NCBI RefSeq assembly: GCF_000686945.1
Contig: NZ_JMME01000008.1
Coordinates: 62,001 to 126,000, forward strand
Length of the DNA stretch: 64,000 nt
DNA from: Selenomonas sp. AE3005
GTDB taxonomy: Bacteria > Bacillota > Negativicutes > Selenomonadales > Selenomonadaceae
Direction of reading: 5' to 3'
The notes under the pieces were generated by a model. The model was not told the DNA's origin. It worked only from the letters and a program-made list of their open reading frames with translations, and did no database searches. Both the position numbers and the translations under genes were made by a program. Shown here one piece after another: positions 4,192-30,781 of the stretch (its first letter is position 1; every line of letters begins with the position of its first letter).

Positions 4192-5043
4192 ATGGAGGCC
4201 CTCTTAGAAGAGAAAGCATTTTCTGAATGCATGAAACAGTACATAGATAGTCTGTCATTGTCAAGGAAGATGCTGATTTGTGAAAATAAGGATATTGTCG
4301 CCAGGACGATTCACGCAATTAACCCTTGCATAGAATTAGAGATTTGGAGTACAACCGAAAAAGAAGCCTTCCTAAAGGACAGATATGAGACAAAGAATGA
4401 ATCTTACGATTACATATATGCAGGCAGACTGTTGGAAAGCGCAGCGGATGCTGAATTAGTGGCCGTAAAGTTACGAAGAATGCTTAAGAATGAGGGGCAT
4501 GTTTTGTTTTTGCTTGGCAACATCCATCATGGAGAAATTATCAGCCAGCTGGGAACAAATCATTGGCCGGGACAGTCTGAAGTGGTACGAGCGGTATTTA
4601 CACCGAATATTAACCGATTTTTTACCCCACAAGATGCAGTAGAATTGTTGGTTGCTAGTGGCTATGAGAATATTATTGTAGATTTGGTAGCTAGAAATGT
4701 TTCTCCTTCCTTGAGAAAGATGTTTCAAGAAGTGTTCGAAGATTTAACGGATGAAGATTTCAATGCGGTGTATTGGTTGATAGATGCCACTCGGTATGAT
4801 GAGGATGGTGTGTGTTTACGCCAACATTATACGGAGTCTGTCCGTTTAGAATTGGTGAAAATCTTGCGCCGGATTGAAAATGATATTGATATCAGGGAAA
4901 ATACAAACAAATTACTGGCATTATGTGCAAATGAACGTATTTCCTTTGAATACATACAGGCATTCATGCAGCATGCACTGTTAAGACCGGCAAAGACAAT
5001 GAAAACAGTAGCTCGTATATTACAGGAGTCTAATAATGGATGA
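4192..5043 (+). CDS. methyltransferase-fold protein (probably degenerate class I SAM type)
   Basis: 283 aa. The stretch at residues ~68-105 (YDYIYAGRLLESAADAEL, then a helix and LKNEGHVLFLLGN) resembles the back half of a class I SAM-dependent methyltransferase sheet. I cannot see a clear glycine-rich SAM loop, so activity is doubtful. The C-terminal half is helical and unrecognised. AAAGGAG precedes the ATG, and the gene overlaps the next one by 8 bp, indicating tight coupling in the glycosyltransferase operon. A similar methyltransferase fold is embedded in the 813-aa protein downstream. Function is inferred only from context. Confidence 0.65.
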   Translation: MEALLEEKAFSECMKQYIDSLSLSRKMLICENKDIVARTIHAINPCIELEIWSTTEKEAFLKDRYETKNESYDYIYAGRLLESAADAELVAVKLRRMLKNEGHVLFLLGNIHHGEIISQLGTNHWPGQSEVVRAVFTPNINRFFTPQDAVELLVASGYENIIVDLVARNVSPSLRKMFQEVFEDLTDEDFNAVYWLIDATRYDEDGVCLRQHYTESVRLELVKILRRIENDIDIRENTNKLLALCANERISFEYIQAFMQHALLRPAKTMKTVARILQESNNG

Positions 5044-5725: not shown

Positions 5726-8167
5726 ATGCTTGATTTAATTGTATTGGCAACAGAGACGGATAATAGAAAATTGCAAGAAAAAATCAAGTATTTAAAAAAT
5801 ATTTTTAAGGAAGAACGACGGATAATTATTTCATCTGTTGCAATTAATGATAAAGCGTGGAACTGTATTGTATCAGAATCTGATGAGACACGCTTGTCGA
5901 TGTGGCTTAAAGGGATGGAATTTGCTAAAAACGAGTATGTATGCCTGTTACATGATGATGTGGAATTATCAAGGCAGTCTCTAAAGCAAATGTGTTCCAT
6001 AATGGAATTGGACGACATGGTCGGAGCTGTAAATCCAAAAACCAATAATAATACGTTTCATTCCAATGCCATTAGTTATGATATTAAATCTGAAGTTAAA
6101 AATATCTCCTTAAAGAAAAATGATATTCCCAATACGACAATGCAACTCCATGATTTTTGCATATTGGCGAGACGTGATGTTTTGCTGCAAGCTTTGAAAA
6201 AACTGGAGCAAAGAAAATATAATTCTTCGCTTTTTGTCAGTATTTTGTTGTCATGGGAAATAATGAAGCAAGGCTATTTGCTGGCGATTGCTGATACAAT
6301 TGTTGAACACGCATCATCGGGCAAGGAAGACATGATGTATATGGCTTCGAGGGATAAAGCGAATTTTCAGAAAGAATATGATATATCTATAGCATATTCC
6401 AGTCTGATAAGAACCGATATATTAAAAATGGTGGCCGTTGACAACCCTAAAGCGATTATTCTCGATGTAGGCTGCTCATGCGGTGGAAATTTGATGCTGT
6501 TGCGTACATTTCTGCGACAGACAGAACTTTATGGGATAGAGATAAATCCTGTTGCAGCAGATGTAGCAAATTCGTTTGGTAATGTACTATGTGAGGATGT
6601 AGAGAAACTAGACAGAAAAGATTGGCAGAATAAATTTGATATTATTCTGATTGGTGACTGCTTAGAACACTTGCATGATCCATGGAATGTGCTTGGTAAA
6701 ATAGTAAAGTATTTGAAACCAACAGGAGAAATAATAATCAGTCTGCCCAATATCAATCATATATCCATACTAAAGTATATGATTGATGGTCGTTTCCCAT
6801 ATGAAGATGCAGGTATTTTAGACAGAACACATTTGCGTTTCTTTACCAGAGAAGGCGTTGAAATGATGCTAGGTAATGCGGGATTAGAAATAACAAACTT
6901 GCGACAGAATGTAATACCGTTAGATGAACGTGAAGTTTTTTTGCGTGATACCCTGACGCAACTATCAGCCCATCCTCAAATCCAAAAAGAATTTGAGAGT
7001 TTTCAGTATATTGCAAAAGCACAACGCATACAGCATTTCACCAGTATTGTAATAATTAATCATAATCTATATGAATACACCAAAAATTTAATAAACAGTA
7101 TTCGCCAATTTACTCCTGCGTATACTTATGAAATAATAGTAGTGGATAATGGTTCAACGGATGCATCACTACCATATTTGATGCAACAAAATGATGTAAA
7201 AGTAATTGTCAATGAAGAAAACAAAGGTTTTCCTATGGGGTGCAATCAAGGAATGAAGGCTGCTCGTGGAAATGAAATACTTCTGTTGAATAATGACACT
7301 TTGGTCACTCCTAACTGGTTAAGTAACTTACGAAATGCGTTGTATTCAGATAGCCATATCGGTGCAGTGGGCCCTATGACTAATTATTGTAGCAATTGCC
7401 AGCAAATAGAGGTGCCATATGATAATAAATTAGATGTGCAATCTATGAAAGAAATGGAGGAATTTGCAGGCAGATATAATGTAAGTGATTCTTCAAAATG
7501 GCACAAGTGGATGAAATTGGTGGGCTATTGTATGCTTATGCGCCGTGAGGTATACGATAAAATTGGCGATATGGATGAAATATTTTCTCCTGGCAATTAT
7601 GAAGATGATGACTATTCAATGAGAATACGCCAAGCCGGTTACGAATTGTTACTGTGTAAGGACACATTTATTCATCACTTTGGCAGCATATCATTTGGTG
7701 TAATGTCAGCAAAGAAGAGAGATGAATATATGAAGTTACAATATGTAAATCGTCAAAAATTTTTATTAAAGTACAATTTAGATGAGTCGTATGGAAATTA
7801 TCATAGCTTTATTGCTGATATGAAACTGGAAGGCATGAATGGTGCTGTTCTTATGTATAATAGTGGCAGTTCTGTGGATTTATATAATCTGGCCTCGAAC
7901 AATTCTGGGATGCAGATATATGGGACAACAAAAAATAAGTATGATTTACAGATAGGCTCGTCGTTCCCTTTATTATACGTTGCAGATATAAATGATTTTT
8001 TATCTGTATTAAAAGGAAAGTATGTATGTATAATTATAGCCGATGATTGGACTAAGATCGCAGATAAAAATAAGTTTATAGAAGATATTGAGGATTTTCT
8101 TTTACCGAATGGTTGGCTGGTGTATATGAATGAAAATGAAGAAGTGACATATATGCAAAAGGAGTAA
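5726..8167 (+). CDS. three-module protein: GT-A domain, SAM methyltransferase, GT2 glycosyltransferase
   Basis: 813 aa. Residues ~1-200 form a GT-A-like domain (YVCLLHDDVELSRQSL). Residues ~235-400 are a class I methyltransferase with the SAM loop ILDVGCSCGGNLMLL, the acidic GIEIN, FDIILIGDCLEHLHDP and a motif-III-like LKPTGEIIISLPN. Residues ~430-690 are a GT2 domain with VVDNGSTDASL, NKGFPMGCNQG, LLLNNDTLVTPNWL and EDDDYSMRIRQAGYELL. The last ~120 residues are a separate domain. One polypeptide could therefore both transfer and methylate a sugar (inference). AAAGGGGA precedes the ATG. A decayed copy of its C-terminal domain lies at 9181-9403. Confidence 0.85.
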   Translation: MLDLIVLATETDNRKLQEKIKYLKNIFKEERRIIISSVAINDKAWNCIVSESDETRLSMWLKGMEFAKNEYVCLLHDDVELSRQSLKQMCSIMELDDMVGAVNPKTNNNTFHSNAISYDIKSEVKNISLKKNDIPNTTMQLHDFCILARRDVLLQALKKLEQRKYNSSLFVSILLSWEIMKQGYLLAIADTIVEHASSGKEDMMYMASRDKANFQKEYDISIAYSSLIRTDILKMVAVDNPKAIILDVGCSCGGNLMLLRTFLRQTELYGIEINPVAADVANSFGNVLCEDVEKLDRKDWQNKFDIILIGDCLEHLHDPWNVLGKIVKYLKPTGEIIISLPNINHISILKYMIDGRFPYEDAGILDRTHLRFFTREGVEMMLGNAGLEITNLRQNVIPLDEREVFLRDTLTQLSAHPQIQKEFESFQYIAKAQRIQHFTSIVIINHNLYEYTKNLINSIRQFTPAYTYEIIVVDNGSTDASLPYLMQQNDVKVIVNEENKGFPMGCNQGMKAARGNEILLLNNDTLVTPNWLSNLRNALYSDSHIGAVGPMTNYCSNCQQIEVPYDNKLDVQSMKEMEEFAGRYNVSDSSKWHKWMKLVGYCMLMRREVYDKIGDMDEIFSPGNYEDDDYSMRIRQAGYELLLCKDTFIHHFGSISFGVMSAKKRDEYMKLQYVNRQKFLLKYNLDESYGNYHSFIADMKLEGMNGAVLMYNSGSSVDLYNLASNNSGMQIYGTTKNKYDLQIGSSFPLLYVADINDFLSVLKGKYVCIIIADDWTKIADKNKFIEDIEDFLLPNGWLVYMNENEEVTYMQKE

Positions 8168-8170
8168 AAA

Positions 8171-9159
8171 ATGCCGAGCCATAACATAGAATTTGCTGAT
8201 TTTACCATTGCAGAACGAAAATTGAAGGTCATACCTTGATAACTTTAGGGCCTGGTTCTTATATAGTACAAGGCGTTTTAGACGTTGGCAGCAGCAATGA
8301 TCATTTATTGATAGGTAAGTATTTGTCTCTGGCACATAACATAAATTTTATTATCGGTTTAAATCATCCTTATCATGTGGTCAGTACTTATCCATTTGCT
8401 GCTACAGGAATATGGGGGGATACGGCAAATGTTATTGCTGAGAAAGCAAGTCAGTGTAATCGTCACCAGATAATAATTGGCCACGATGTATGGATAGGTG
8501 AAAATGTGACAATTATGGGCGGTGTACGTATCGGCAATGGTGCTGTAATCGGTGCTAATGCAGTAGTAGCAAAGGATATACCTCCTTATGCAATTGCGGT
8601 AGGTAATCCAGCAAAAATCATAAAATATAGATTTGATTCAGATACTATTTCCCAATTGCAGGTGATTAAATGGTGGGATTGGTCGGAAGAAAAAATTAAA
8701 GAGGCCTTACCTTTTATGGTTAATATGGAAAAATTCCTTCGGATGTATTATTGCCCCCCCTCAGTAGACAACGTTGGCGGAGAATTACAGAAACAACTTG
8801 CGGAATTACATAATAAATATAAAATATACCATCTGCGTCCTGATTGGCATAGCGGAGAAGCGTTGTGGCGCATATTCCTAGAGAAATTTGTAAAGGAAAA
8901 TAGTTTTGAAGCGAACAGAATATTATTAGTGTGGTTGAAAGATACAACAGAGGCAAAGATGTGTATGAAGGAAATAAGTGAATTGCTGGTAAAGGTAGGG
9001 CAAAATGCACCTAAAATTATGAGCTACAATGGTGATGATAATGTGATGCATTCGATAATTAATTATGCGGAAGTCATAGTTACAACAAAGGAAATGGTAA
9101 GTTTAGACATAATTGAGTCTAAAAATAGTGAAGTGGATTGGATATTTGCAGACGATTGA
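8171..9159 (+). pseudogene. left-handed beta-helix acyltransferase (CatB/Xat type), frameshifted near its 5' end
   Basis: Hexapeptide-repeat acyltransferase, about 320 aa if repaired. The ATG at 8171 follows AAGGAG and encodes a start like that of the intact paralogue at 32506 ([14 protein letters not shown] vs [14 protein letters not shown]), but this frame stops at 8237. The rest reads in another frame from about 8224: [50 protein letters not shown], then a C-terminal domain shared by all copies. One indel between 8200 and 8236 would join the two parts. Alternatively translation starts at TTG 8236, giving 307 aa without the first ~20 residues. A C7 run (8754-8760) lies in the C-terminal domain. 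Confidence 0.7.
8754..8760. repeat. C7 homopolymer inside the acyltransferase gene
   Basis: Seven consecutive C bases in codons for Cys-Pro-Pro after the hexapeptide-repeat domain. The frame is open with this length. A change of one base would truncate the C-terminal domain. It is one of seven G/C runs of 7 or more, all within 8.7-27.9 kb. Confidence 0.6.
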
Positions 9160-11737: not shown

Positions 11738-11745
11738 GGGGGGGG
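11738..11745 (+). promoter_or_regulatory. G8 run that forms the ribosome binding site of the aminotransferase gene
   Basis: AAGGGGGGGG lies 4 bp before the GTG start at 11750, in the 96-bp gap after the GNAT gene. There is no other purine-rich Shine-Dalgarno candidate, so the run itself must serve. Slippage here would not shift the frame but would change strength and spacing of the ribosome site, giving graded rather than on/off variation. Confidence 0.55.
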
Positions 11746-11749
11746 CATT

Positions 11750-12919
11750 GTGGGAATACAACTATTTAAAGCAAACTTTGCAGTGGAGGCGTGTTTGAAA
11801 CAAGTAAGAGAATGCCTTGAAAAAGGTTGGACAGGAATGGGGTTTAAGACTGTTGAATTAGAAGAGGCATGGAAAGAGTATACTGGGCATAAATATGCAT
11901 ATTATTTAAATTCAAATACAGCAGGACTTTATATGGCAGTTGACACGCTTAAAGAGGTATGCGGCTGGGATAATGGGGATGAAATAATTTCCACACCACT
12001 TACATTTATTTCAACCAATCATGCAATTGCGAAAAATAATATGAATGCTGTTTTTGCAGATGTGGATGATACTTTGTGTTTGGATCCACAGTCAGTAGAA
12101 GAACATATAACCGATAAAACACGAGCAGTTATTTTTGTGGGGTTGGGGGGGAATACAGGCAGATTAGGCGAAGTGAAAAAAATTTGTAAAAATTATGGAC
12201 TAAAATTGATTATAGATGCAGCACATATGGCCGGTACAAGATATAGGGATGGAAGTATTCCTGGTGCAAATGGAGAAGCTGATATTACTGTATATTCATT
12301 TCAAGCTGTAAAAAACTTACCTACTGGTGATAGCGGAATGATTTGCACTGATGATGCCGAACTTGATGAAATATTCCGCAAAAAAGCGTGGCTGGGAATC
12401 AATAAGGATACCTATACCCGTGCGATGAATAAAGAAGGTACATATAAATGGAAGTATAATGTTGAGTATGTGGGTGATAAATATAATGGTAATTCAATAA
12501 TGGCGGGAATAGCATTGGCACAGTTACCATTTCTTGATCGTGATAATGCCTATCGTAGAACATTAGCTCAGTGGTATACGGATGAATTCGCTCAATATCC
12601 AAATCAAATAGGATTAGTAACAGTACTTGACGATTGTATATCATCCCGTCATTTGTATCAGATTTTTGTGAACGATAGAGACGGACTTATGATGTATTTG
12701 AATGCTAATGATGTTTATCCAGGAGTACATTATATGTCTAATACTGAATATAGTATGTATTCCTATGCAAAAGGGTCTTGCGTAAATGCTGATTTTGCAA
12801 GTAATCATATTATTTCTTTACCCATGCATATGGAAATATCACATAAGGATGTGAAATACATTGCAAAACTGGTTGTGAAGTATTTAATGGATATTAGAGG
12901 TGGTGAAAGATTGAAGTGA
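11750..12919 (+). CDS. DegT/DnrJ/EryC1/StrS-family PLP aminotransferase
   Basis: 389 aa, the normal length for sugar aminotransferases. Visible motifs: YYLNSNTAGLYMAVDTL (substrate pocket), DEIISTPLTFISTNHAI, the PLP-contacting LIIDAAHMAGT, and SFQAVKNLPTGDSG with the Schiff-base lysine. The family transaminates keto-sugar nucleotides, for instance on the way to pseudaminic or legionaminic acid or 4-amino-4,6-dideoxy sugars; the exact sugar cannot be read here because the dehydratase partners are not in the window. It contains a G7 run (12145-12151) in VGLGGN, in frame, and starts at GTG behind a G8 ribosome site. Two GNAT genes flank it. Confidence 0.85.
   Translation: MGIQLFKANFAVEACLKQVRECLEKGWTGMGFKTVELEEAWKEYTGHKYAYYLNSNTAGLYMAVDTLKEVCGWDNGDEIISTPLTFISTNHAIAKNNMNAVFADVDDTLCLDPQSVEEHITDKTRAVIFVGLGGNTGRLGEVKKICKNYGLKLIIDAAHMAGTRYRDGSIPGANGEADITVYSFQAVKNLPTGDSGMICTDDAELDEIFRKKAWLGINKDTYTRAMNKEGTYKWKYNVEYVGDKYNGNSIMAGIALAQLPFLDRDNAYRRTLAQWYTDEFAQYPNQIGLVTVLDDCISSRHLYQIFVNDRDGLMMYLNANDVYPGVHYMSNTEYSMYSYAKGSCVNADFASNHIISLPMHMEISHKDVKYIAKLVVKYLMDIRGGERLK
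12145..12151 (+). repeat. G7 homopolymer inside the aminotransferase gene
   Basis: Seven G within VGLGGN codons, about one third into the gene. The gene is in frame at this length. Loss or gain of one G would destroy the PLP-binding part. Confidence 0.6.
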
Positions 12920-12947: not shown

Positions 12948-13529
12948 ATGATAATTGATGGGAAAATTAAGGGGAAATATGTATATTTAAGATCAGTTAT
13001 GACTGATGATGCAATGTTTACATTATCCTTGCGTCAAGACCATAAATTGACTAAGTATTTACCTAAATTAAATATATCCTTGGAGCAACAAAAACTATGG
13101 ATTGTATCACAACAAGAAAAAAGTGATGATTACTTTTTTTTGGTAAATACTATTGACAATAAGCCGATAGGAACTGTGAGTATATATAATATCAGTGGAG
13201 ATACATCAGAGGCGGGACGGTTGGTTTTACTAGGAGATCCTTTTCAGAATACAGAAGCAGTATTGCTACTGTTTATATTTGCTTTTGATGTTCTTGGCTT
13301 GAAAATGATAACAGGTTATACAAATGATGAGAATAAAAGAGCTGAAAGATTCAATAGTCAGTTTGGATTTGTAGCAAGTAAGATGAAAAATGCGGACAAC
13401 GAAGAATTGAAGAAATGGGTATTACTTACACAAGAATCTTTTCATAAAGCTAGTATACGTTTGCAAAAATTGCTTTATGGTAATATTGTTACTATACATA
13501 AAGATGGTGCTGATGTAAAAGTAATATGA
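12948..13529 (+). CDS. GNAT N-acetyltransferase
   Basis: 193 aa. GKYVYLRSVMTDDAMFTL is the usual GNAT opening, followed by FFLVNTIDNKPIGTVSIYNI (central strands) and LGLKMITGYTNDENKRAERF with FNSQFGFV (acetyl-CoA pyrophosphate loop region and last strand). A C-terminal extension of ~50 residues is not recognised. It lies 28 bp behind the aminotransferase with its own GAGGAG site. The likely role is acylation of an amino sugar or small amine made by the neighbouring enzymes (inference). It is not closely similar to the GNAT gene at 11138, so two different acylations are possible. Confidence 0.7.
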   Translation: MIIDGKIKGKYVYLRSVMTDDAMFTLSLRQDHKLTKYLPKLNISLEQQKLWIVSQQEKSDDYFFLVNTIDNKPIGTVSIYNISGDTSEAGRLVLLGDPFQNTEAVLLLFIFAFDVLGLKMITGYTNDENKRAERFNSQFGFVASKMKNADNEELKKWVLLTQESFHKASIRLQKLLYGNIVTIHKDGADVKVI

Positions 13530-13587: not shown

Positions 13588-13806
13588 ATGACAAAAGTAG
13601 AAAGGTTAAATATTCTAGCTGAGGCAATGGATGTTGGGATAGATGTTTTGCTAGATGATACAGTTTTATCATCTTTAGATGAGTGGGATTCTTTAGCTGC
13701 ACTATCATTAATGGCTGTACTAAATGGCAAGATGAATAAGAAAATTACTCCCCTGGAGATAAAGGAGCTTAATACTGTTGCAGATGCACTGAAACTTATG
13801 GAGTAA
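13588..13806 (+). CDS. acyl carrier protein
   Basis: 72 aa, acidic. The sequence EWDSLAALSLM carries the serine of a DSL motif that receives the 4'-phosphopantetheine arm; the helical layout and length are those of a stand-alone carrier protein. It carries acyl or aminoacyl groups for the neighbouring ligases, SDR and KAS III. A strong ribosome site (TAGGAGG) precedes the ATG, and the SDR gene starts 6 bp after the stop. It is not the housekeeping AcpP, whose usual fabD/fabG/fabF neighbours are absent. A second carrier is at 20729. Confidence 0.85.
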   Translation: MTKVERLNILAEAMDVGIDVLLDDTVLSSLDEWDSLAALSLMAVLNGKMNKKITPLEIKELNTVADALKLME

Positions 13807-13812
13807 ATTGAA

Positions 13813-14547
13813 ATGGTTGATCTTCAAAGAAAAAAAATTTTAGTGACTGGAGCGTCATCGGGAATTGGTCGTGCTGTAGCACTACAGATATCTAAAATGG
13901 GGGCATCTGTAGTAGCTTGTGGGAGAGATTATGATAGATTGATGGAAACAAACAGAGCAATGGCTGGAACAGCACACAAAATTATTTCATTTGATGTTAA
14001 AGATTTTTCCAAGTACGATTTAGTATTTAATGATGCCGTTGCGGATGGGAGGAAACTTGATGGATTAGTTCATTGCGCGGGGGTGGCTATCCCTACTCCG
14101 TTACGTATTATGAGTGAAGATGTTGTACATAATATATTGGATGTCAATTATGTTTCTTTTATGATGCTTGTTCAACGGTATATAAAAAGAAAGTATAGTA
14201 ACGGTGGGAGTATTGTAGCAATTTCTTCTATCAATTCTCATTATCCGCAGAAATGTATGAGTGTGTATGCGGCTTCTAAGTTTGCTATTGAAGCATCTGT
14301 TAAAACAATGTCTTTAGAAATGGCTGAAAAGGGGATTCGCATAAATTGTGTTGTACCAGGAGCTGTTAATACTCCTATGACACAATGCTGTTTTGAAAAA
14401 ACACAGCAATATCTTGAAAAAAAATCTTTGTTGGGCATGAGTGAACCTGAGGATGTGGCAAATATGATAGTTTTTCTTTTGAGTACTGCTTCAAGAAAAA
14501 TAACGGGACGTGCCATGTTTATAGATAGTGGTTGGTTGGGGCAGTAG
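13813..14547 (+). CDS. short-chain dehydrogenase/reductase (FabG-like)
   Basis: 244 aa classical SDR. The NAD(P) loop is VTGASSGIGRAVAL, the second site LDGLVHCAGVA, the catalytic serine lies in IVAISSINSH, and the Tyr/Lys pair in VYAASKFAIEAS; MFIDSGWLGQ is the usual end. FabG relatives reduce 3-ketoacyl-ACP. Its position 6 bp behind an acyl carrier gene and in a block with a KAS III suggests it reduces a carrier-bound keto group, though sugar-nucleotide reduction cannot be excluded. Confidence 0.85.
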   Translation: MVDLQRKKILVTGASSGIGRAVALQISKMGASVVACGRDYDRLMETNRAMAGTAHKIISFDVKDFSKYDLVFNDAVADGRKLDGLVHCAGVAIPTPLRIMSEDVVHNILDVNYVSFMMLVQRYIKRKYSNGGSIVAISSINSHYPQKCMSVYAASKFAIEASVKTMSLEMAEKGIRINCVVPGAVNTPMTQCCFEKTQQYLEKKSLLGMSEPEDVANMIVFLLSTASRKITGRAMFIDSGWLGQ

Positions 14548-14556
14548 GTGATGATT

Positions 14557-15669
14557 ATGTCAGAAATAAGCATTTGGGATAAAGGAATTTATGGTATGAT
14601 TTTCGATGGAAATGAGGTGGACTTGCAGGCACCAGTCAGCCCATGTTCCCCTAATACTAAATTCGTAATATTCAGAGTTCCGGGGGGGAGAAATTTCGGA
14701 ACAAATGCTCTTATCTAATGGATTAACTCGTTTGGAAGTATGTATTGTAGATGACAGTAGTGAGTCAGTAGATGTCAATGCTGCGAGATATGAGGGAGCG
14801 GAAAATACAGTTCTTGTTATTGAACGTGCCAAATTTTGGCGAAAATATAAAGACATTTTCAGGAAATATAATCTTAGATGTCAAATCACTTCTATAATGC
14901 GTTCGTTTTTTGATGTTATGAAACTAGGTCTTTGGGAAACACATGAAATTCTGGAGGATGACGGTTCAAGGGAGATTTTTACCGAGTCATTAAATGTCAG
15001 ATATAAGATAAAACTCGCTGAAGTATTGTATGATTTCTTTGATTCGAACCAGTATTTTGCTATACCGGAAATGAATATAATAGATCTTGATGGAGTATTT
15101 ATAGATTGCGGTGCTTTTGTGGGAGATACAGTAGAACTTTTTATTCAGCGGGGTCAAGGTGTCTTAAAAAAATATACGCATTCGAGCCACTACCCAGACA
15201 GTTTTACTCGTTGCGAAGACGAAAGAGACGGTTGGTGGATGAATGGGCTCTGGATGAGAATCAGATCATTTGCTACCGTTCGGGCGTTGGGAGTCATACA
15301 ATGAAGGCTGTGGCTAAGTTCGGTGAGTTGAACCAGCATATAATAAGCACAAGATTGGTGGAAGCGAATGAAACTTCTGTTGAGAATGGTGAAGAAGTAA
15401 TAGATATATATGCTTTGGATGAAGTTTGTAAAGGCGAGAATATCCGGTTTATAAAGGCAGATGTGGAAGGCTATGAAATGGACATGTTAAGAGGGGCAGA
15501 AAGAATAATCAAGGAGTACAAGCCCTGCTTGGCAATATCTCTTTATCATAAATTGACCGGTTACTATGAGATTCCACTATACATAAAAAGCTTGGTGCCT
15601 GAGTATAAAATGAAAGTTCGCCATCATTCTACGGACTTTACAGAGACTGTACTTTATTGCTATTGTTGA
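14557..15669 (+). pseudogene. FkbM-family methyltransferase with two homopolymer frameshifts
   Basis: AGGTGA precedes the ATG at 14557. The first frame runs to a stop just after a G7 run (14682-14688). With G6 it would continue into the main body (QMLLSNGLTRLEVCIVDD). The main body reads to an A7 run (15166-15172), where A8 would be needed to continue GQGVLKK into IYAFEPLPRQF. The two joined parts give an FkbM enzyme of ~370 aa: the SAM site IDCGAFVGDTVELF, IYAFEPLP, and IRFIKADVEGYEMDMLRGA. FkbM enzymes O-methylate sugars and polyketide hydroxyls. As written the gene is off. Whether this is phase variation, true decay or read error cannot be decided from one sequence. Confidence 0.75.
14682..14688 (+). 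repeat. G7 run at the first frameshift of the FkbM gene
   Basis: Frame is lost here; six (or nine) G would keep the upstream and downstream frames together, apart from the separate A7 problem at 15166-15172. Confidence 0.65.
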
Positions 15670-15685
15670 TGGAGTTGTATTAATT

Positions 15686-16540
15686 ATGGATGTTTTGTTT
15701 TGGGATGATAAAGAAAATGCATACACGGAGGACAGCGTTTATCAAGCTTTGATAGATGTGGGAGCAGGGGATTGTGAAATTTTGTTCCTGCATTCTGATA
15801 TAATGCTTGGGCGGGTATCTGAGCAGTTTAGGAGGAAAGAGTATTTAGCGGCTTTGTCTCGTGCTATACAACGTTTAAGTGTGCATTATCTGATTGTCCC
15901 TACTTTTACTTATAGCTTTTGTAATAACGAAGAATATGATGTGCAGAAAAGTAGGACATCTATGGGAGCCTTGAATGAATTTCTGCGCAAGGAAGAAGGA
16001 CGCTATCGCACAGAAGACCCGCTGCTTTCTTTGTCTGTACCTGATGATATAAAAACAAAGTTTTTCAATCCAAGTGAGCATTCACTAGGTATTGGCAGTA
16101 GCCTGGATGCCTTGCATCACATGAAGGAGGTAAAGTTCCTCTTCCTGGGGGCAAGACTTCATGACTGCTTCACTTATCTGCATTATGTGGAGAAGATATT
16201 GGATGTTCCTTACCGTTATGACCAGCCCTTTACGGGGACGGTCATAGATGAAAATGGCAATACTACTGAGCGGACTCAGTATATCCACACCGCCTGCAAA
16301 GGTGTGAAGCTTAGGGAAGATACACGATTCGAGGACTACCTGACAGAACATGGTTTTTTGAAAAAAGTGCCTTTGGGCAATTCCTTTGTCAGTTGCATAA
16401 GTGAAGAGGATGCCTATCGAGAAATAGTCAGGGCTATAGAAAATGACCCAACGTATTTCCTTGCGGAGCCTTATCGCAAGGAAGATTTGAAGCATGAATA
16501 TACCTATGATGCATCCGCGGGGAGGATTACGCATTGCTAG
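15686..16540 (+). CDS. AAC(3)-like N-acyltransferase
   Basis: 284 aa, the family's normal length. The AAC(3) features are FLHSDIMLGRVSE near the start, LIVPTFTYSFCNNEEYDV, the SRTSMGALNEFLRKEEG region and EDPLLSLSV, followed by FLFLGARLHDCFTYLHYVE. The family acylates amino groups with acetyl-CoA or other acyl thioesters; outside antibiotic resistance, members occur in surface-sugar and natural-product loci. Here it most likely acylates an amine made by the island. From about this gene to 21.9 kb the DNA is noticeably GC-richer than the flanking AT-rich genes. It ends 17 bp before the ligase start. Confidence 0.75.
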   Translation: MDVLFWDDKENAYTEDSVYQALIDVGAGDCEILFLHSDIMLGRVSEQFRRKEYLAALSRAIQRLSVHYLIVPTFTYSFCNNEEYDVQKSRTSMGALNEFLRKEEGRYRTEDPLLSLSVPDDIKTKFFNPSEHSLGIGSSLDALHHMKEVKFLFLGARLHDCFTYLHYVEKILDVPYRYDQPFTGTVIDENGNTTERTQYIHTACKGVKLREDTRFEDYLTEHGFLKKVPLGNSFVSCISEEDAYREIVRAIENDPTYFLAEPYRKEDLKHEYTYDASAGRITHC

Positions 16541-16557: not shown

Positions 16558-18073
16558 ATGCCCAGGATTATTACAGACTATCTTGACACAACCGCAGAAA
16601 GATTCCCTGACAAAACTGCCATAGTTGACGGGGAGAAAATGCTCACCTTTGTCCAGCTGCGTGATAGTGTTCGTCGGGTAGCTTCAGAACTTGCTGGCTT
16701 GGGAATCTTCCATCAGCCTGTGGCTGTGTATCTGGAGCAAAGTGCTGAGTCAGTTGTTTCCTTTTTGGGAGCTGCTTATTCCGGGAATTTTTACACAGTG
16801 CTGGACAGCAAAATGCCGACCGAGAGATTGCGAAAGATTGTTGAGGTGCTGGAGCCGGCAGTTATTTTGACTGATGAGAAGCACTTTGCTGATGCACAAA
16901 TATTCGCGGGGGGGGGGACGAGAAATACTCCTCCTCTCAAACCTTTTGCAAGCTGATGCCAATGAGGGCAAGTTAGCGGAAGTAGCTGGCAGAATCAGTG
17001 CGATGGATGTGCTGTATGTGCTCTTTACCTCCGGCTCTACGGGTATTCCCAAGGGAGTCACCATTGGACAACGGTCAGTCATGGATTATACGGAGTGGGT
17101 GACTGAGACTTTTCGAGTAGATGAGCATGATGTCATAGGGAATCAGGCTCCCTTTTACTTCGATAATTCCGTGTTGGACATCTATCAGATGGTGTGCACA
17201 GGTGCGACATTGCACATCATTCCTCGGAAGTTGTTTGCTTTTCCTTTGCGATTGCTTGAATATGTGCGGGATCATGGCATCAACATGGTATTTTGGGTGC
17301 CTTCGGTACTTTGCACCATTGCTAATTTTGAGGTGCTGGAGGCCTGCGATGTTTCCTGTCTGAGGAAGGTGCTATTTGCCGGTGAAGTCATGCAAAATAA
17401 ACAGCTGAATGTTTGGCGCAAGGCTTTGCCGGAGGCACTTTTTGCCAATCTCTATGGTCCTACGGAGATTACCGTGGATTGCACCTACTATATGGTGGAT
17501 AGGGAGTTTGCAGATTCTGAGCCGTTGCCCATCGGCGTTTCTTGTCGGAATTCTACGGTGCTGGTGCTGGATGAAAATGACAGACTGGTGACGGGACAGG
17601 AGCAGGGGGAGCTTTGCGTCAGGGGTACATCCCTTGCGTATGGCTATTACAACAACCCAGGGAAGACAGCCGAGGCCTTTGTGCAAAATCCCTTAAATCC
17701 TGATTATCCTGAAATCATCTACCGCACAGGCGACCTGGTTCACTACAATGAGTGGGGAGAGCTCATGTATGACGGCAGGAAGGATTTCCAGGTGAAGCAT
17801 ATGGGCCACCGCATTGAGCTGGGGGAGATTGAGACGGCAGCCTCGTCCCTTGATGGGATTGATAGTTGCTGTTGTCTCTTTGATGGCACAAAGGACAGGT
17901 TGATTCTTTGCTATACGGGAGATTTTGAGGAAAAGGAACTGAGGAAAAGCCTCCTTGACCTCCTGCCTGATTATATGGCGCCAAGGCTCTGCCATCAGCT
18001 GGGCAGCATGCCGCTGAATCAAAATGGAAAAATTGACCGGGTGAAGCTGAAAGCGATGTTTTGCCCGGCTTAA
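16558..18073 (+). pseudogene. AMP-dependent (adenylate-forming) ligase, out of frame at a G10 run: candidate phase-off gene
   Basis: AAGGAGAGG precedes ATG 16558. The first 117 codons are the start of an ANL-family adenylation protein (ITDYLDTTAERFPDKTAIVDG, GAAYSGNFYTVLD). At G10 (16908-16917) the frame slips and stops at 16956. The remainder continues in the +1 frame to 18073 with the ATP-binding FTSGSTGIPKGVTIG, NLYGPTEITVDCTY, IYRTGDLVHYNE and NQNGKIDRVKLK, whose lysine is catalytic. Nine G would restore a single protein of ~505 aa. It resembles amino-acid/D-alanine-type activating enzymes and is a paralogue of the next gene. Expected role: activate an acid and load a carrier protein. Confidence 0.85.
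16908..16917 (+). repeat. G10 contingency tract in the first ligase gene
   Basis: Ten consecutive G, the longest G run in the window. The gene is open with 9 (or 12) G and closed with 10 or 11. It lies about one quarter into the gene, before all catalytic motifs, so the present length should give a 132-residue non-functional fragment. Confidence 0.75.
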
Positions 18074-18086
18074 CGGGGGCGTTGCT

Positions 18087-19613
18087 ATGCAGATAAATGT
18101 GGTGGAATACTGGCTAAATTATGTTTCGGATGAAGCCATACGTAATAAGATTGCGGTGGTTGAGGAAGAAAAGGAAACTTCCTTTGGTGAGATTTTCGAC
18201 AGAGCCGGAGTGCTAGGAGAGCATCTGATAAAGAACTTTTCGGACACCGGCCGTCCCATGGCGATATTCCTGCCGAAATGCGCGGATCAGATGGCTGCGG
18301 ATATGGCTGTTCTCTATAGTGGCAATGCCTATAGCAATCTGGACATCCGCCAGCCGGAAGAGCGCACCAAGCGGATTATCGAGCAGTTGCAGCCCTTATG
18401 TATTCTGACAACCAGGAACTTTACTGCCAAACTGGAGCAGGCCGGGGGCGTGCCGGTCATCTGCCTTGAGAATATTCAAGGTGAGGCCTATGACCTTGAG
18501 GTTATCAAGGAGAGACTGGCAGGTATCGTGGACACTGACCCACTCTGCATCATCAACACTTCCGGTTCCACAGGCACCCCAAAAGGGGTAGTCATGAACC
18601 ACAGGAGCATCATTGATTTCCTCGATCAGGGATGCAGGGTGCTGGATATCGGCCATGGGGAGCGCATTGGCAGTCTTTCACCGGTTTACTTCGATATCTT
18701 CACCTTGGAGTTTTACCTGACCCTTTGGAAACAGGCTGTGTTTGTCTGCATTCCCGAGAATCTCGCCATCTTCCCGGAGAGACTGGCGGAGTTTTTGGAG
18801 GAAAAGCAGATAGACTTTATCTTTTGGGTACCAACGGTGATGGTGAATATGGCCAATTTGGATATTTTGTCTGGTCATCCTCTGAAGGATATGAAAAAGG
18901 TGCTTTTTGCTGGGGAGGTTTTTCCTATCAAGCATCTGGCCTACTGGATGGAGCACTTACCACAAGCGGAGTTCATCAATATGTATGGCCCTATCGAGAT
19001 CACCGTGGATTGCCTCTATCACAAGGTGACTAAGGAAGATATCGAGAAGGGCGAGCTACCCATTGGCGAAGTATTCCCCAATACCGAGGTCTATATTCTG
19101 GATGAGGATGACAAAGAATGCCAGATAGGAGAAACCGGCGAGCTTTGCGTTAGCGGCACATCCCTAGCCATGGGCTACTATCGTGACAAGGAAAAGACTG
19201 AACGGGCTTTCGTGCAGAATCCCTTGAATAAAGCCTACATAGAGATTATCTACCGCACTGGCGACATGGTACGCCGCAGGGATGATGGAGAAATTATCTT
19301 CCTAGGTCGAAGAGATTTTCAGGTGAAGCATCTGGGCTATCGTATCGAGCTGGGAGAAATCGAAGCCGTGGCGGTGAGCATGACGGAGATAGACAATGCC
19401 TGCGTGCTTTATGACCATGGGGAGAAGAAAATAGTCCTCATCTATGAGGGCAGGGAGGAAATCTCCTTCAGGGATATCCGTGAAGGCATCGGTAAAGTGC
19501 TACCCAAGTATATGCTGCCTAATATCTGTCATAAGGTAGAGAAAATGCCCAGAAATCCTAATGGGAAGATAGACAGGAAAAGGCTGCAGGATGAGTATGT
19601 GAGGAAATCATGA
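18087..19613 (+). CDS. AMP-dependent (adenylate-forming) ligase, intact
   Basis: 508 aa ANL-superfamily enzyme resembling stand-alone adenylation domains of the DltA/NRPS type. Motifs: INTSGSTGTPKGVVMNH (P-loop), NMYGPIEITVDCLYH, IYRTGDMVRRRDDGE, FQVKHLGYRIELGEIE (hinge) and NPNGKIDRKRL with the C-terminal catalytic lysine. It would activate a carboxylic or amino acid with ATP and pass it to a phosphopantetheine carrier such as those at 13588 and 20729. Roughly half of its residues match the disrupted ligase just upstream, so two related but not identical acids may be activated. It overlaps the formyltransferase start by 4 bp. Confidence 0.85.
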   Translation: MQINVVEYWLNYVSDEAIRNKIAVVEEEKETSFGEIFDRAGVLGEHLIKNFSDTGRPMAIFLPKCADQMAADMAVLYSGNAYSNLDIRQPEERTKRIIEQLQPLCILTTRNFTAKLEQAGGVPVICLENIQGEAYDLEVIKERLAGIVDTDPLCIINTSGSTGTPKGVVMNHRSIIDFLDQGCRVLDIGHGERIGSLSPVYFDIFTLEFYLTLWKQAVFVCIPENLAIFPERLAEFLEEKQIDFIFWVPTVMVNMANLDILSGHPLKDMKKVLFAGEVFPIKHLAYWMEHLPQAEFINMYGPIEITVDCLYHKVTKEDIEKGELPIGEVFPNTEVYILDEDDKECQIGETGELCVSGTSLAMGYYRDKEKTERAFVQNPLNKAYIEIIYRTGDMVRRRDDGEIIFLGRRDFQVKHLGYRIELGEIEAVAVSMTEIDNACVLYDHGEKKIVLIYEGREEISFRDIREGIGKVLPKYMLPNICHKVEKMPRNPNGKIDRKRLQDEYVRKS

Positions 19614-20473
19614 AACCAAAGCAGATTTTTTTTATGGGAACAGGCACGGTGGGCAGAGAGTGCTTGAAAATCCTAAAAAATGCCACGGATGTTCCAATCG
19701 AGTACTTGACTGTGGAAAGCGAGCCTATTCCCACCATGGAGCCGCTTTGCAGGAAACTTGGGATACTATGCAGAAACTTGTCGTCTATAGAAGTGAAAAA
19801 TTTGCTTATGCAGCAGGAATTGGAAACACTTATCATCAGCGCACATAACGAGTACATTTTCCCAAAAGAAGTTGTGAAGCAGCATAATGTAAGACTCATC
19901 AACTTTCACAATGCCTATCTGCCTAATTATAGAGGGCGTAATGCCCCTACTTGGGAGATTTATGAGGGAGCTGCTTATGGTGGTGCTACCTGGCATGAAG
20001 TGGAAGCATCCATTGACACTGGTGGCATCATTGTGCAGGAAAGGGTGCCTATTGAGAATGTTGAAACGGCGCTGTCTCTTTTGATGAAATGTGCCAAAGC
20101 TGGAATAAAGCTTATGCGAGAGAACGTTGGTGAGTTCCTTGGGGGGGATTATCTGGCACGGTCGGCAGAGAAAAAAGGCAGGCTATACTTGGCAAAGGAA
20201 CTGCCAAATGGTGGCTACCTTGATACAACATGGGACATGGAACAGGCATATCGCTTCTTAAGGTCTATGGATTACAGTCCTATGAATATATTGCCTTTAC
20301 CTAGGGTGAGGTTAGGAGATAAGGTTTATGGAATTGAAGGATATAATTTACAAAAAAGGCAAATGTTTCGGAAGGGGGAACGGGACTCTCTCAAAATACA
20401 AGCATGGGACGGTAGTCTGGAACTTGTGTGCAACCTGAGGGAGATAAAAGAAATTCCATTGACAGATGAGTAG
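19610..20473 (+). CDS. formyltransferase-family protein (methionyl-tRNA formyltransferase fold)
   Basis: 287 aa. The Formyl_trans_N domain shows the catalytic triad spacing: Asn and His in INFHNAYLPNYRGRNAP and Asp in EASIDTGGIIVQE. Short relatives N-formylate amino sugars (ArnA, WlaRD/VioF type) using N10-formyltetrahydrofolate, and that is the most likely job here, on an amine produced in the locus. The C-terminal ~90 residues resemble the small beta domain of Fmt. A G7 run (20141-20147) lies in EFLGGDYLA and the frame is open with this length. It is coupled to the upstream ligase (ATGA overlap) and to the small gene downstream. Confidence 0.8.
   Translation: MKPKQIFFMGTGTVGRECLKILKNATDVPIEYLTVESEPIPTMEPLCRKLGILCRNLSSIEVKNLLMQQELETLIISAHNEYIFPKEVVKQHNVRLINFHNAYLPNYRGRNAPTWEIYEGAAYGGATWHEVEASIDTGGIIVQERVPIENVETALSLLMKCAKAGIKLMRENVGEFLGGDYLARSAEKKGRLYLAKELPNGGYLDTTWDMEQAYRFLRSMDYSPMNILPLPRVRLGDKVYGIEGYNLQKRQMFRKGERDSLKIQAWDGSLELVCNLREIKEIPLTDE
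20141..20147 (+). repeat. G7 homopolymer inside the formyltransferase gene
   Basis: Seven G between the catalytic domain and the C-terminal domain. The gene is in frame at this length; a slip would cut off the last third. Confidence 0.6.
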
Positions 20474-20728: not shown

Positions 20729-20965
20729 ATGAAGAAGATTAGTGATATTTTGTCAGAGATACGCCCAGAGTATGACTTTGCAGGCAGTAGTGATTTTTTT
20801 GAGGATGGTTATCTTGATTCCTTTGATCTAATAACTTTGGTAGCAGCCTTGGACAAGGAGTACCACATGAAAATCAAGGGCACGGATATAGTACCGGAGC
20901 ATTTTTGTAATCTGGAGGAAATCCGCAAGCTGATGAAGGGGTATGGGGTAGAGAATGATATTTGA
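20729..20965 (+). CDS. acyl carrier protein (second copy)
   Basis: 78 aa, acidic. The phosphopantetheine serine is in GYLDSFDLITLV. It has a good ribosome site (GCGGAGGGG) and overlaps the KAS III gene by 11 bp, so it probably presents the substrate to that enzyme. It differs clearly from the carrier at 13588 in length and in the residues around the serine, suggesting dedicated partners. Confidence 0.85.
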   Translation: MKKISDILSEIRPEYDFAGSSDFFEDGYLDSFDLITLVAALDKEYHMKIKGTDIVPEHFCNLEEIRKLMKGYGVENDI

Positions 20966-22019
20966 ATACCGCAACAAGAAAATCACGGGACTTTTGACCA
21001 TCGTCCCCAAGAATATCCGCACCTTTGATGAGGAAATGGAGAAATTCAAGGCAGATAAAGCTCGCAACAAGCGTTTGAAAATGGTCATGGGATATGAGCA
21101 ACATCGTATGTTTGATGATGTTGTTTGTGTTTCGGATTTGGCAGTAACTGGCATGGAATATCTTTTTAAAGAAGGTCTTTTGAAAAAAGATGAGATTGAT
21201 GCCTTGGTGCTGGTCACCCAGTCACCGGACTACTTTATGCCAGCCACCAGCAATATCATACATGGTAGATTGGGGCTTGCCGAGGATGTTTTCTGCGTTG
21301 ATATCAACCAAGGTTGCGCAGGTTTCTTGGTGGGGTTGATGCAGGCCTTTTCGCTTCTTGAGCAGACAACTGTGAACAAGGTGGTGCTGATAAATGCTGA
21401 TGTTCTTAGCCGTAAAGTTTCCAAGGCAGACAGGAATAGTTATCCCTTGGTGGGAGATGCAGCTTCCATTACTATTGTGGAAGGCTGTGAGGAGGAAAAT
21501 CTGGTGCAGGGAGAAATCCGCATGGACGGGAGTCGTTCGGATATGCTGATTATCCCCGCAGGAGGCTTTCGCAGGCCATCGTCCCCAGAGACTGCCATCA
21601 TGCACGAGGATGAGGAAGGCAACAGTCGTAGTCTGGATAACCTTGTCATGGGAGGTCGGGAAGTATTCTACTTCGTCCAAACTGAGGTGCCGAAGCTTAT
21701 TGAAGGAATGCTGGAACGTATCAAGATTTCAAAGGAAGAAATCGACTGGTGGATGTTCCATCAGCCTAATAAGTTCATGGTTGATAAGTTAGCAGAGGCA
21801 CTTGATGTGCCTTATGAGAAAATGCCTAGTAATATTGTTACTTATTTTGGTAACGCTAGTGGTGTAACAATTCCTACCAATATGGCGTACAATTTAGGGG
21901 ATATGTTGGAAAAAAATAATTATAATATTTGTTTTGCTGGATTTGGTGTGGGGCTGACATGGGGAGCGATAGTTATGGAGGTCGGAGAAATGAAATTTTG
22001 CAAAATAATAGAATTATAA
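20955..22019 (+). CDS. 3-oxoacyl-ACP synthase III (KAS III/FabH-like)
   Basis: 354 aa, slightly longer than housekeeping FabH. The full catalytic triad is visible: Cys in VDINQGCAGFLVGLMQA, His in WMFHQPNKFM, Asn in VTYFGNASGVTIP. GFGVGLTWGAIVM is the typical C-terminus. It would condense an acyl or aminoacyl starter with a malonyl-type carrier substrate, or act as an acyltransferase as some FabH relatives do. With two ligases, two carriers and an SDR it forms a small fatty-acid/NRPS-like pathway. The start ATG is inside the acyl carrier gene. No dedicated terminator is obvious after it. Confidence 0.85.
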   Translation: MIFEYRNKKITGLLTIVPKNIRTFDEEMEKFKADKARNKRLKMVMGYEQHRMFDDVVCVSDLAVTGMEYLFKEGLLKKDEIDALVLVTQSPDYFMPATSNIIHGRLGLAEDVFCVDINQGCAGFLVGLMQAFSLLEQTTVNKVVLINADVLSRKVSKADRNSYPLVGDAASITIVEGCEEENLVQGEIRMDGSRSDMLIIPAGGFRRPSSPETAIMHEDEEGNSRSLDNLVMGGREVFYFVQTEVPKLIEGMLERIKISKEEIDWWMFHQPNKFMVDKLAEALDVPYEKMPSNIVTYFGNASGVTIPTNMAYNLGDMLEKNNYNICFAGFGVGLTWGAIVMEVGEMKFCKIIEL

Positions 22020-22440: not shown

Positions 22441-23813
22441 TCATGCACACCGTTTCAGGCAGCTTTGCCATAAATCGGGCAGATTTTCCAAGAAGGAATC
22501 CAGCATGGCAATTAGTTCCTTTTCAAGGAAAAGCCATTTTTCTGTTATCATGGATACAAGCTTTTTCAAAACCATAATCAATGCATCCATGTACTGTAAA
22601 TCCTGCAATTCATCGCACGAAATATAGAACAACTCGCCAATACTCCGTTTATCGACTTTTCTGCGTTGTTCCAGAGATAACAGCATATATCTGGCCAAGA
22701 CAATGGAAACATGAGCGGTCATTGCATCATAGGACATGGTTCTGCTCTTTTTGCCAAGCTTCAGATACGATTTGCACATTTTGAAGAAGACTTCTATATT
22801 CCAGCGTTTGCCATAGGTTTGGATGATTTCTTCTTCAGACAGATTGACATCTGTAGAAACCAAAATCAGATAATCCTGTCGTTTGTTCCTGTTTCTTACA
22901 AAGACCAGTTTTACCGGAATGGATTGTTTTCCTTTTACGACTTCCGCCTCCACGGAAAGAAGATATGGGGAACGGCCGCGGCGCTTCTTTGCTGCTCGGA
23001 AAATTGCAGGCGCGCATTGCATCCGTCCGCTGTAGCGAAAATGAATTTTTCACTATTCTTGACCATGCCAATGACATCGTAGCCAATATCCTTGACTTGC
23101 AGCAATGAAGATGGCGAACAGAACCATGTGTCAAAAAGAACATACTTTGCCGGAATCTCAGCGGCTTTTGCATCTTTCAGCAAGGTCAGCATCACGCTGG
23201 TAGCCTTGGTCTGCGCCAGCTTGCGCAGCTTGCCGCCATTGTTTCTGGCATCAATAGATGCGGATGCTTCCTGTAGCCGGTTTTCACGCTCGGTAGAGGA
23301 TAGCAGGCACTGACTCAATGGCAGGAAGGAATTTCCATCGCTCCAGCCAAGAGTCAGCATGCGGAACCCTTTGGTGTACTTATGCTCTACATGGTCAAAA
23401 ACTTTAGCCAGCAGTTCTACTTTTTTCGAGCGTGCCTGGCTAAAAAGAGAATCATCGATGATAAGTACATTGCGGAGTTTCTCATGGGTAAGCGGTTCGA
23501 TTTTCCCAATAACAGAGGAAGCGAGCTGAAGTGTAAATTTGCGCCAATTGATGCTGCTGGAATTCATAAAGCGATAAAAGGTGTCCTTAGCAAAAGGGAG
23601 GCAGTTTGAATACTCCCTCTGCTTCTGGAAGAACGATTTATTGCTGAAAGCATTTTCAAAGGCTACTTGGAATACATCTTTGACCGAAAAGCCGCGTACT
23701 TTGTACGCATTGCAGGCTTTGAGAATCCGCCCCGCATGGAATTCTTCAAGAAAATGAGAAATTTTCGAGGAAAGTAGTTCACGAGACTGATGATTTTGTG
23801 CTACAATATTCAT
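22441..23813 (-). pseudogene. IS4-family DDE transposase, one frameshift
   Basis: ATG 23813 follows GGAGGG, so I prefer it to the in-frame ATG at 23858. The first part holds the initial catalytic Asp (VLIIDDSLFSQ) and the second (YVLFDTWFCSP). The second part, in another frame from about 23050 downward, holds AAKKRRGRSPYLLSV, FVRNRNKRQDY and the Glu-containing WNIEVFFKMCKSYLKL. The break lies at an A5 run (around 23045, minus strand) where A6 would restore about 457 residues; the fragment at 29957 shows the uninterrupted version of this region. A programmed frameshift is possible but unusual for IS4, so inactivation is more likely. Confidence 0.8.
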
Positions 23814-23933
23814 GGCATAAGCCCTCCGTTTATGTTGTGATAGTTTAGTCACTTTCATTATACAAAATGGAGATGGCTTATGCTATTTTATTTTGGAAAA
23901 TTTGATTTAATAATTATTGGACAGTTTTACAAC

Positions 23934-29106: not shown

Positions 29107-29956
29107 ATGGAAAGACAGCGTATTGTAAAAACATATCAAAAGGCGTTTTTACTTTTGAAGCAGAAAAGATATACTGAGGCTGGAAGGGTAATTGAACAAT
29201 TTTGGCAGTTGAATGGTACGAAGTCTTTGTGGGGATGCTTTTGATGGCCTATATTTTGCGCGACCAACAAAAGTATGTGTCAGAAGTCAAAGTGCTTGAG
29301 GAATTGTTTGAGCATTTTAGGGATTCGGGTGAAGTAAAACTTTTAGCTGATGCTTGGAGTATGATGGGGGATGCGCTGCGTTGTCTAGGTGAAGGTAAGC
29401 TGTCGGTAGAGGCTTTTAAGAAGGCTGTGGAAGTTGAGCCTGCTCTGGAGCAGAAACTAGTGGAATGCAGCAATGCGATATTTTCGGCAAATGCGATTGC
29501 TGGCGTTACAGCTGATTATATGCAATCGCTTTATGTATTATACCGTGAGCTTTTGGGAAATTTGTCTGTGAGGCCTTATTCGCCCACTGTATGGAAGCAT
29601 AAAAAAATTCGTGTGGGTTATATTTCAGCAGATTTACGTGACCATGCAGTAGCACAGTTTGTCAGGCCGATGCTTTGTCAGTATGATAAGGAAAAATTTG
29701 CAGTGTATGTTTACTCCGTGACGCGCCATCCTGATAAAGTGACGGAGGCACTGCAGCAAGGTGGTGCACTATGGTGGGATGTTTCTGCTGATCGCTGGCC
29801 ACAGATTGCTGAACAGATACGATTCGATGAAATGCTCTGAGGCTGATACGTCACCTTATTTTACGGAAAATCTTTTGCGGTTACCTCATAGCCATTTATG
29901 CTATCAGCCATTTGCGGATTTCCCTGAAGTTGGGCAACCGCCATGCTTGCAATGCT
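29107..29956 (+). pseudogene. GT41 glycosyltransferase remnant: frameshift, internal deletion, cut by an IS fragment
   Basis: Matches the intact gene at 30782. The start (MERQRIVKTYQKAFLLLKQK) is followed by a frameshift near 29205, then TPR-like sequence and IRVGYISADLRDHAVAQFV. After EQIRFDE (29835) the frame breaks, and the text jumps directly to TSPYFTENLLRLPHSH, omitting roughly 80-90 codons of the catalytic domain. It ends at about 29956, where transposase sequence begins. It is non-functional and is presumably the tandem duplicate of the gene at 30782. Confidence 0.8.
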
Positions 29957-30655
29957 GTCCGCGCGGATCATCAATGCGCATATTCGCCCTCTTACATCTG
30001 AGAATCGCGATGACTGCTTTGTTATTGACGATTCGCTGTATGAGCGCGCAGGCGTAAAACGTACTGAATTGGCCTCCTGGGTCTTCGACCATGTTTCCAT
30101 GCGATGCAAAAAGGGCTTCCGCCTGTTGACACTTGGCTGGACGGATGGCTGTACCTTTTTGCCCATCAACCATTCTCTGCTGGCATCCAGCGATGCAGAA
30201 AAAGTTCTTGGCCCCTGCAACAAGATAGACAAGCGGACTATTGCTGGAAAACGCAGATTTTTGGCTCGTCAAGAGGGGACTACGGTTATGGTAGAACTCT
30301 TGAAAACCGCTCTGGCAGCTGGTCACAAGGCGAAGTATGTCCTCTTTGACAGCTGGTTTTCCAATCCTCAGCAGATTCTGGATATCAAATCCTTAGGTCT
30401 GGACACCATTGCCATGGTAAAGCGCAGCATCAAGATACGCTATTTCTACAATGGCGAATCTCTGGATATCAAGAAGATTTTTGCCGCCTACAAGAAGCGG
30501 CGCGGCCGTTCCCACTATCTCCTGTCTGTAAACGTAAAGGTAGGACAGGACAAAAATGGAAAAAATGGACTGGATGCTAAAATTGTCTGTGTTCGCAACC
30601 GGAACAACCGCAAGGACTGGATTGCCATAATTTGCACAACTTCAGAACTCTGCGT
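29957..30655 (+). mobile_element. internal fragment of an IS4-family transposase
   Basis: About 230 codons matching the middle of the transposase at 22.4-23.8 kb: FVIDDSLYERAGVKRTEL, KGFRLLTLGWTDGCTFLP, YVLFDSWFSNP, AAYKKRRGRSHYLLSV, VRNRNNRKDW. N-terminus, C-terminus (including the catalytic Glu region) and both inverted ends are missing. It is a different, diverged element from the complete IS. It replaces the C-terminal part of the GT41 pseudogene. Confidence 0.8.
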
Positions 30656-30781
30656 CTTGACTGCGAGTCAATAAAGCATATTTTTAGATGGTAACTTGTG
30701 TGTAATGTTGCAAAAGCTGTAGAAAAAACTGTAGAGTGGTCTAAGGCTTGATGTAATGGAAAGGATGTGACTGATGGTGTG

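Follow-up and report, generated by a model that had tools for sequence, protein, structure and literature searches.

The question raised by this locus is whether a ligase gene that is split into two reading frames at a long run of G nucleotides is decaying, or is intact in principle and reversibly switched off. The gene is in a 64,000 bp stretch of DNA, here called the window, that corresponds to bases 62001-126000 of contig 7 in the genome of Selenomonas sp. AE3005 (G000; 2.82 Mb, a draft in 25 contigs). A G10 homopolymer at positions 16908-16917 (+) divides the gene, which encodes a standalone amino-acid-adenylating ligase of the DltA/NRPS type, and this run exceeds the cut-off of at least 7 G or C within a reading frame that has been used elsewhere for poly-G/C tracts (PMC6321876).

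In the 5′ frame (16558..16956, +), translation from the ATG at 16558 stops at the TGA at 16954-16956. The 132 aa product matches only the first quarter of the AMP-binding domain, its N-terminal part (PF00501, profile positions 2-103), and has no catalytic core motif. The 3′ frame, shifted by one base (16874..18073, +; PF00501, profile positions 154-384), reaches the TAA at 18071-18073 and holds the remaining ligase domain, with motifs A3 (TSGSTGIPKG) at 17027, A5 (NLYGPTE) at 17447, A7 (YRTGD) at 17720, A8 at 17774 and A10 (NGKID) at 18023. As all of the A3-A10 motifs lie 3′ of the run, the G10 product is without any of them. No second lesion is present across the 1.5 kb of the gene, and a change in run length of -1 or +2 would rejoin the two frames, as a matter of frame arithmetic and not of expression. 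The initial annotation had stated that the G10 run breaks an adenylating ligase, that both parts are preserved with their catalytic motifs and that G9 would restore the full enzyme. All three statements hold, the last by arithmetic and by the existence of an orthologue, described below, that is open over its whole length.

The ligase has the same core motifs as DltA and the adenylation domains of NRPSs, and its closest orthologue, from Selenomonas ruminantium HD4, scores 347.7 bits against the amino-acid adenylation model TIGR01733 (cut-off 317.4). DltA structures occur among the PDB matches. However, it scores 312.5 bits on the DltA equivalog model TIGR01734, far under the cut-off of 559.85, and it belongs to a glycan operon and not to a dlt operon. 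No dlt partner genes were found among its neighbours, and it was not assigned to DltA.

Upstream of the ligase are a DegT/PseC-like sugar aminotransferase gene (11750..12919, +), which has a G8 run just in front of it (11738-11745), and a GNAT acetyltransferase gene with weak similarity to PseH (12948..13529, +). These are followed by genes for an acyl/peptidyl carrier protein with a DSL motif (13588..13806, +), a short-chain dehydrogenase (13813..14547, +) and an FkbM-like methyltransferase (14548..15669, +; PF05050 on 15106-15669). The FkbM-like gene is apparently broken, with two frameshifts, one at a G7 run (14682-14688) and one at an A7 run near 15185. An AAC(3)-like N-acyltransferase (Antibiotic_NAT; 15686..16540, +), the probable acyl transfer step, immediately precedes the split ligase. 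Downstream of the ligase are a second standalone amino-acid adenylation ligase, a paralogue that is 41 % identical (18087..19613, +), a formyltransferase (19610..20473, +; PF00551), a second acyl/peptidyl carrier protein with a DSF motif that is 91 % identical to its HD4 counterpart (20729..20965, +), and a ketoacyl-ACP synthase III (20955..22019, +), all of them intact. Fragments of DDE_5-type transposases, at 22441-23858 and 29943-30674, border the distal half of the island.

The glycan genes are linked to flagellin and hook genes, the linkage by which a flagellin-glycan island is recognized. The 16 kb that precede the window hold fliD, two flagellin genes, an FkbM gene and GT2/TPR glycosyltransferase genes; GT41 genes open the window, and a further flagellin gene is at 53523-55769. 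The two upstream flagellin genes (L156:4151-5548 and 6941-8338, in G000 contig 7) are equal in length and have identical domain scores, with the FkbM methyltransferase gene between them, and this pair is likely to be a recent duplication. Because the split ligase is about 26 kb behind the two flagellin genes and amid glycosyltransferases, a role in the flagellin glycan is likely, and the flagellin-glycan context proposed initially is supported. Judged from its gene content, the operon would specify a carrier-protein-dependent route for the acylation of an amino sugar, and this sugar is most likely part of the flagellin glycan.

The nearest orthologue of the split gene, the HD4 ligase (L003; G013 contig 12, NZ_FRBC01000022.1), shares 95 % DNA identity and is a single open frame of 502 aa. 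At the site of the run HD4 reads GGGGGGAAAAACGAAAAAACTCC and the window reads GGGGGGGGGGACGAGAAATACTCC, or G6 A5 CG A6 as compared with G10 A CG AGAAATA. Over a stretch of 54 bases, the alignment of the two has 7 mismatches if the single gap is put at 16922 or 16926, and 10 if it is put inside the run. The better-fitting gap is therefore 5-9 bases 3′ of the G10 run and, because it costs fewer mismatches there, the historical extra base may lie just 3′ of the run. Hence, the claim that one base in the G10 run is the sole difference is unproven, as the gap relative to HD4 fits slightly better outside it. The gap position is immaterial for switching, since the loss of one base from the run, or the gain of two, would be enough to join the frames.

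A second lineage carries a G run at this site. The ligase orthologue of a sheep-rumen MAG of the Selenomonadaceae (L090/G173), with 78 % amino acid identity, lies at the end of a contig. This contig breaks off within nine or more consecutive G at the same codon, and a matching open frame follows. The 5′ half of this orthologue was not found in a search of the remainder of the same MAG. Among about 20 more distant orthologues from the other genomes of the family, none has a G run at the site. The comparison of run lengths across species is based on one genome per species. In the family alignment, the stretch before A3 in which the run is located is a linker of variable length that is missing entirely in some family members, and extra glycines should therefore be tolerated. 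If the common ancestor of the window, HD4 and the MAG had the run, the short run of the HD4 gene would mark it as a copy locked in the on state. In Campylobacter, non-variable close homologues whose runs are shorter or interrupted have been reported (PMC6321876).

Between the window and HD4, dN/dS is 0.26 before the break and 0.10 behind it. With the MAG orthologue as the outgroup, the changes behind the break comprise 7 nonsynonymous and 14 synonymous ones on the window branch, and 2 nonsynonymous and 9 synonymous ones on the HD4 branch. The neutral expectation is about 45 nonsynonymous changes per 14 synonymous (864 and 270 sites, respectively). On the branch of the window itself, the 3′ part is still subject to purifying selection, and the gene has been kept despite the off state; the ligase was selected for during most of the time since the window and HD4 diverged. 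Several of the amino acid changes specific to the window affect otherwise conserved sites, for example P to Q in GEVMP and R to W, and these allow for a slight recent relaxation.

The explanation that best survives as an alternative to a switch is that the ligase is a recent pseudogene, knocked out by an ordinary indel, in an operon that is starting to decay in this strain. We consider this unlikely. The best gap position relative to HD4 is outside the G run, but a second lineage has a G run at the same site. Some of the substitutions on the window branch are radical, but the ratio of 7 nonsynonymous to 14 synonymous changes is far from neutral. The transposase fragments and the twice frameshifted FkbM-like neighbour also fit a decaying operon, though the ligase gene itself has its single lesion only, and the paralogue, formyltransferase, carrier protein and ketosynthase genes downstream are intact. 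Further lesions had been named beforehand as a sign of decay, and the two frameshifts in the FkbM-like gene are lesions of that kind, though this is another gene. The part of the initial annotation that held that the gene is in a reversible off state and is not an old pseudogene gained partial support from the run of at least G9 in the second lineage, the selection on the 3′ part and the runs in other glycan genes described below.

It is somewhat less likely again that the break arose in sequencing or assembly, the real run having an in-frame length and the ligase being intact. The genome is a draft, ten-base homopolymers are prone to error, and the two further frameshifts in the adjoining FkbM-like gene are also at homopolymers. 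However, G14 and G9 runs are in frame within genes of the same assembly and the other genes of the window look intact. Even with a miscounted length, about nine or ten G would be left, and these make a slippery site. Least probable by far is constant low expression, with no switch in the DNA, through RNA polymerase slippage on the run, for which G10 is a plausible site and which would join the frames in transcripts that are one base short (or two bases longer), as a close orthologue with a short, interrupted run needs no such slippage. Ordinary -1 ribosomal frameshifting leads to the wrong frame.

Long G runs elsewhere bear on whether the ligase stands alone. The genome contains 42 G7 and 11 G8 runs, and one each of G9, G10, G11 and G14. 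Geometric extrapolation predicts about one run of at least 10 per genome, and run length was therefore not used as evidence. The other run counts are unremarkable, but chance does not explain the G14 run, nor where the long runs sit. Runs of at least 7 are clustered in the island, with 6 in 11.4 kb, an arrangement found in 1 of 20000 uniform placements. As the observed number is close to that predicted by a Markov model of the window, the clustering was not relied on either.

The G14 run is in frame between the GNAT and formyltransferase domains of a single gene (L054:3726-4820, run at 4229-4242), in a second glycan locus that includes NeuB, DegT and glycosyltransferase genes. By its position, lengths out of frame with G14 would cut off the formyltransferase domain. 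The G11 run is just upstream of an MBOAT O-acyltransferase gene and the G9 run is in frame inside a UbiA-family gene. Across the genus, runs were found in or before genes for MBOAT proteins, glycosyltransferases, TupA-type ATP-grasp proteins, AAC(3)-like NATs, Wzz, capsule-type proteins, two-partner adhesins and flagellins. Outside this genome, runs of at least 9 are within an AAC(3)-like NAT gene, a glycosyltransferase gene and a TupA-type ATP-grasp gene, and they precede polysaccharide, Wzz, MBOAT, two-partner adhesin and flagellin genes; further ones are at unrelated or unknown genes. In one genome (G001), an in-frame G9 run (7722-7730) is within the AAC(3)-like NAT gene (L052:7310-8158) that immediately precedes the ligase orthologue. 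In another (G018), a TupA-type ATP-grasp gene is in two frames at a G11 run (L059:533-1946, run at 1501-1511) and is a second candidate for an off state. In the sheep rumen MAG, a G10 run (7147-7156) near the end of the formyltransferase joins it, without a change of frame, to GNAT-containing sequence (L090:6385-8037). The window has the two as separate stretches, and C-terminal switching is possible in the MAG.

Some of the runs belong to a conserved element that resembles a promoter, TCTTGYG(8-11)(A)CATNTRTGCTA with a TATAAT-like box behind it. The element was found at 12 sites in 8 of the 22 Selenomonas genomes, with G lengths of 8, 9, 10 and 11. The same search with a reversed control of the element returned no sites. 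The sites include G000 C5:30428-30455 (-), which is near 6440-6450 in L053, and those in L144-L155. Where annotation is available, the element precedes MBOAT and polysaccharide/Wzz-type genes. From its conservation and position, this poly-G element is a candidate phase-variable promoter. Loss of mismatch repair was considered as a cause of slippage and was rejected, as MutS is intact; it is present in all genomes of the genus.

The reversible off state is favoured because of the run of at least G9 in the orthologue with 78 % identity, the purifying selection and the G runs in glycan genes elsewhere. On these grounds, the split ligase gene is probably a slipped-strand poly-G contingency locus that is phase-variable, and we propose it as a candidate for one. 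Replication slippage in living populations would change the length of the run. Lengths of one phase would permit synthesis of the full ligase. Its most likely substrate is an amino acid or a similar acid, which the enzyme would activate and load onto either of the operon's small carrier proteins. From there, one of the transferases, AAC(3)-like or GNAT, may move the acid to an amino sugar and so decorate the flagellin glycan. With G10, translation would stop shortly behind the run, ahead of all catalytic motifs, and the decoration would be absent.

The broader proposal is held with less confidence, though the balance still tips in its favour. It is that the enzymes which decorate surface glycans with acyl, amino-acyl and formyl groups form a poly-G phasome throughout Selenomonas, operating via in-gene runs and via the promoter spacer TCTTGYG(n)CATNTRTGCTAatataat with 8-11 G, and that this would be the first such phasome in the Negativicutes. 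No report of homopolymer-run phase variation in Selenomonas or the Negativicutes was found in the open literature, which was the scope of the search.

The best comparison is with the flagellin glycan locus of Campylobacter jejuni, where Cj1295, Cj1296/7 and further genes are switched by poly-G tracts of 8-10, and where the mass of the glycan and the mobility on SDS-PAGE change; the pseudaminic-acid glycan is altered when Cj1295 switches, and Cj1296/7 is annotated as an N-acetyltransferase (PMC3068675). As in that locus, the run proposed here is within a probable flagellin-glycan tailoring gene and one-base changes would switch translation. In G001, a DUF2172/DUF4910 aminopeptidase-like gene is beside the AAC(3)-like NAT gene with the G9 run and the ligase orthologue, which recalls the Cj1295-Cj1296/7 arrangement. 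Unlike in C. jejuni, the organism is from another phylum, and the run is in an adenylation ligase that would load a carrier protein. The phasomes of Campylobacter, Neisseria and Helicobacter consist of runs of at least 7 G, mostly within genes and with surface glycans as targets (PMC6321876). The ligase resembles them in its in-gene run, in its probable surface-glycan target and in having a homologue, in HD4, with a shorter run; it differs in that long runs are few, with four of at least 9 in this genome, and that MutS is present. The comparison suggests that the proposed locus works on the same principle as the Campylobacter poly-G switches, in a clade that is apparently new for it.

The best-known cases of slipped-strand phase variation are those of mucosal pathogens. 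If the proposal is true, the same switching logic is found in commensal, rumen-type Selenomonas that have MutS, where it acts on the amino-acyl and formyl decoration of flagella and capsule-like glycans, and the analysis supplies a short list of candidate switch sites. These would provide a simple genetic handle on how a gut anaerobe varies its surface against phages, protozoan grazing and host antibodies.
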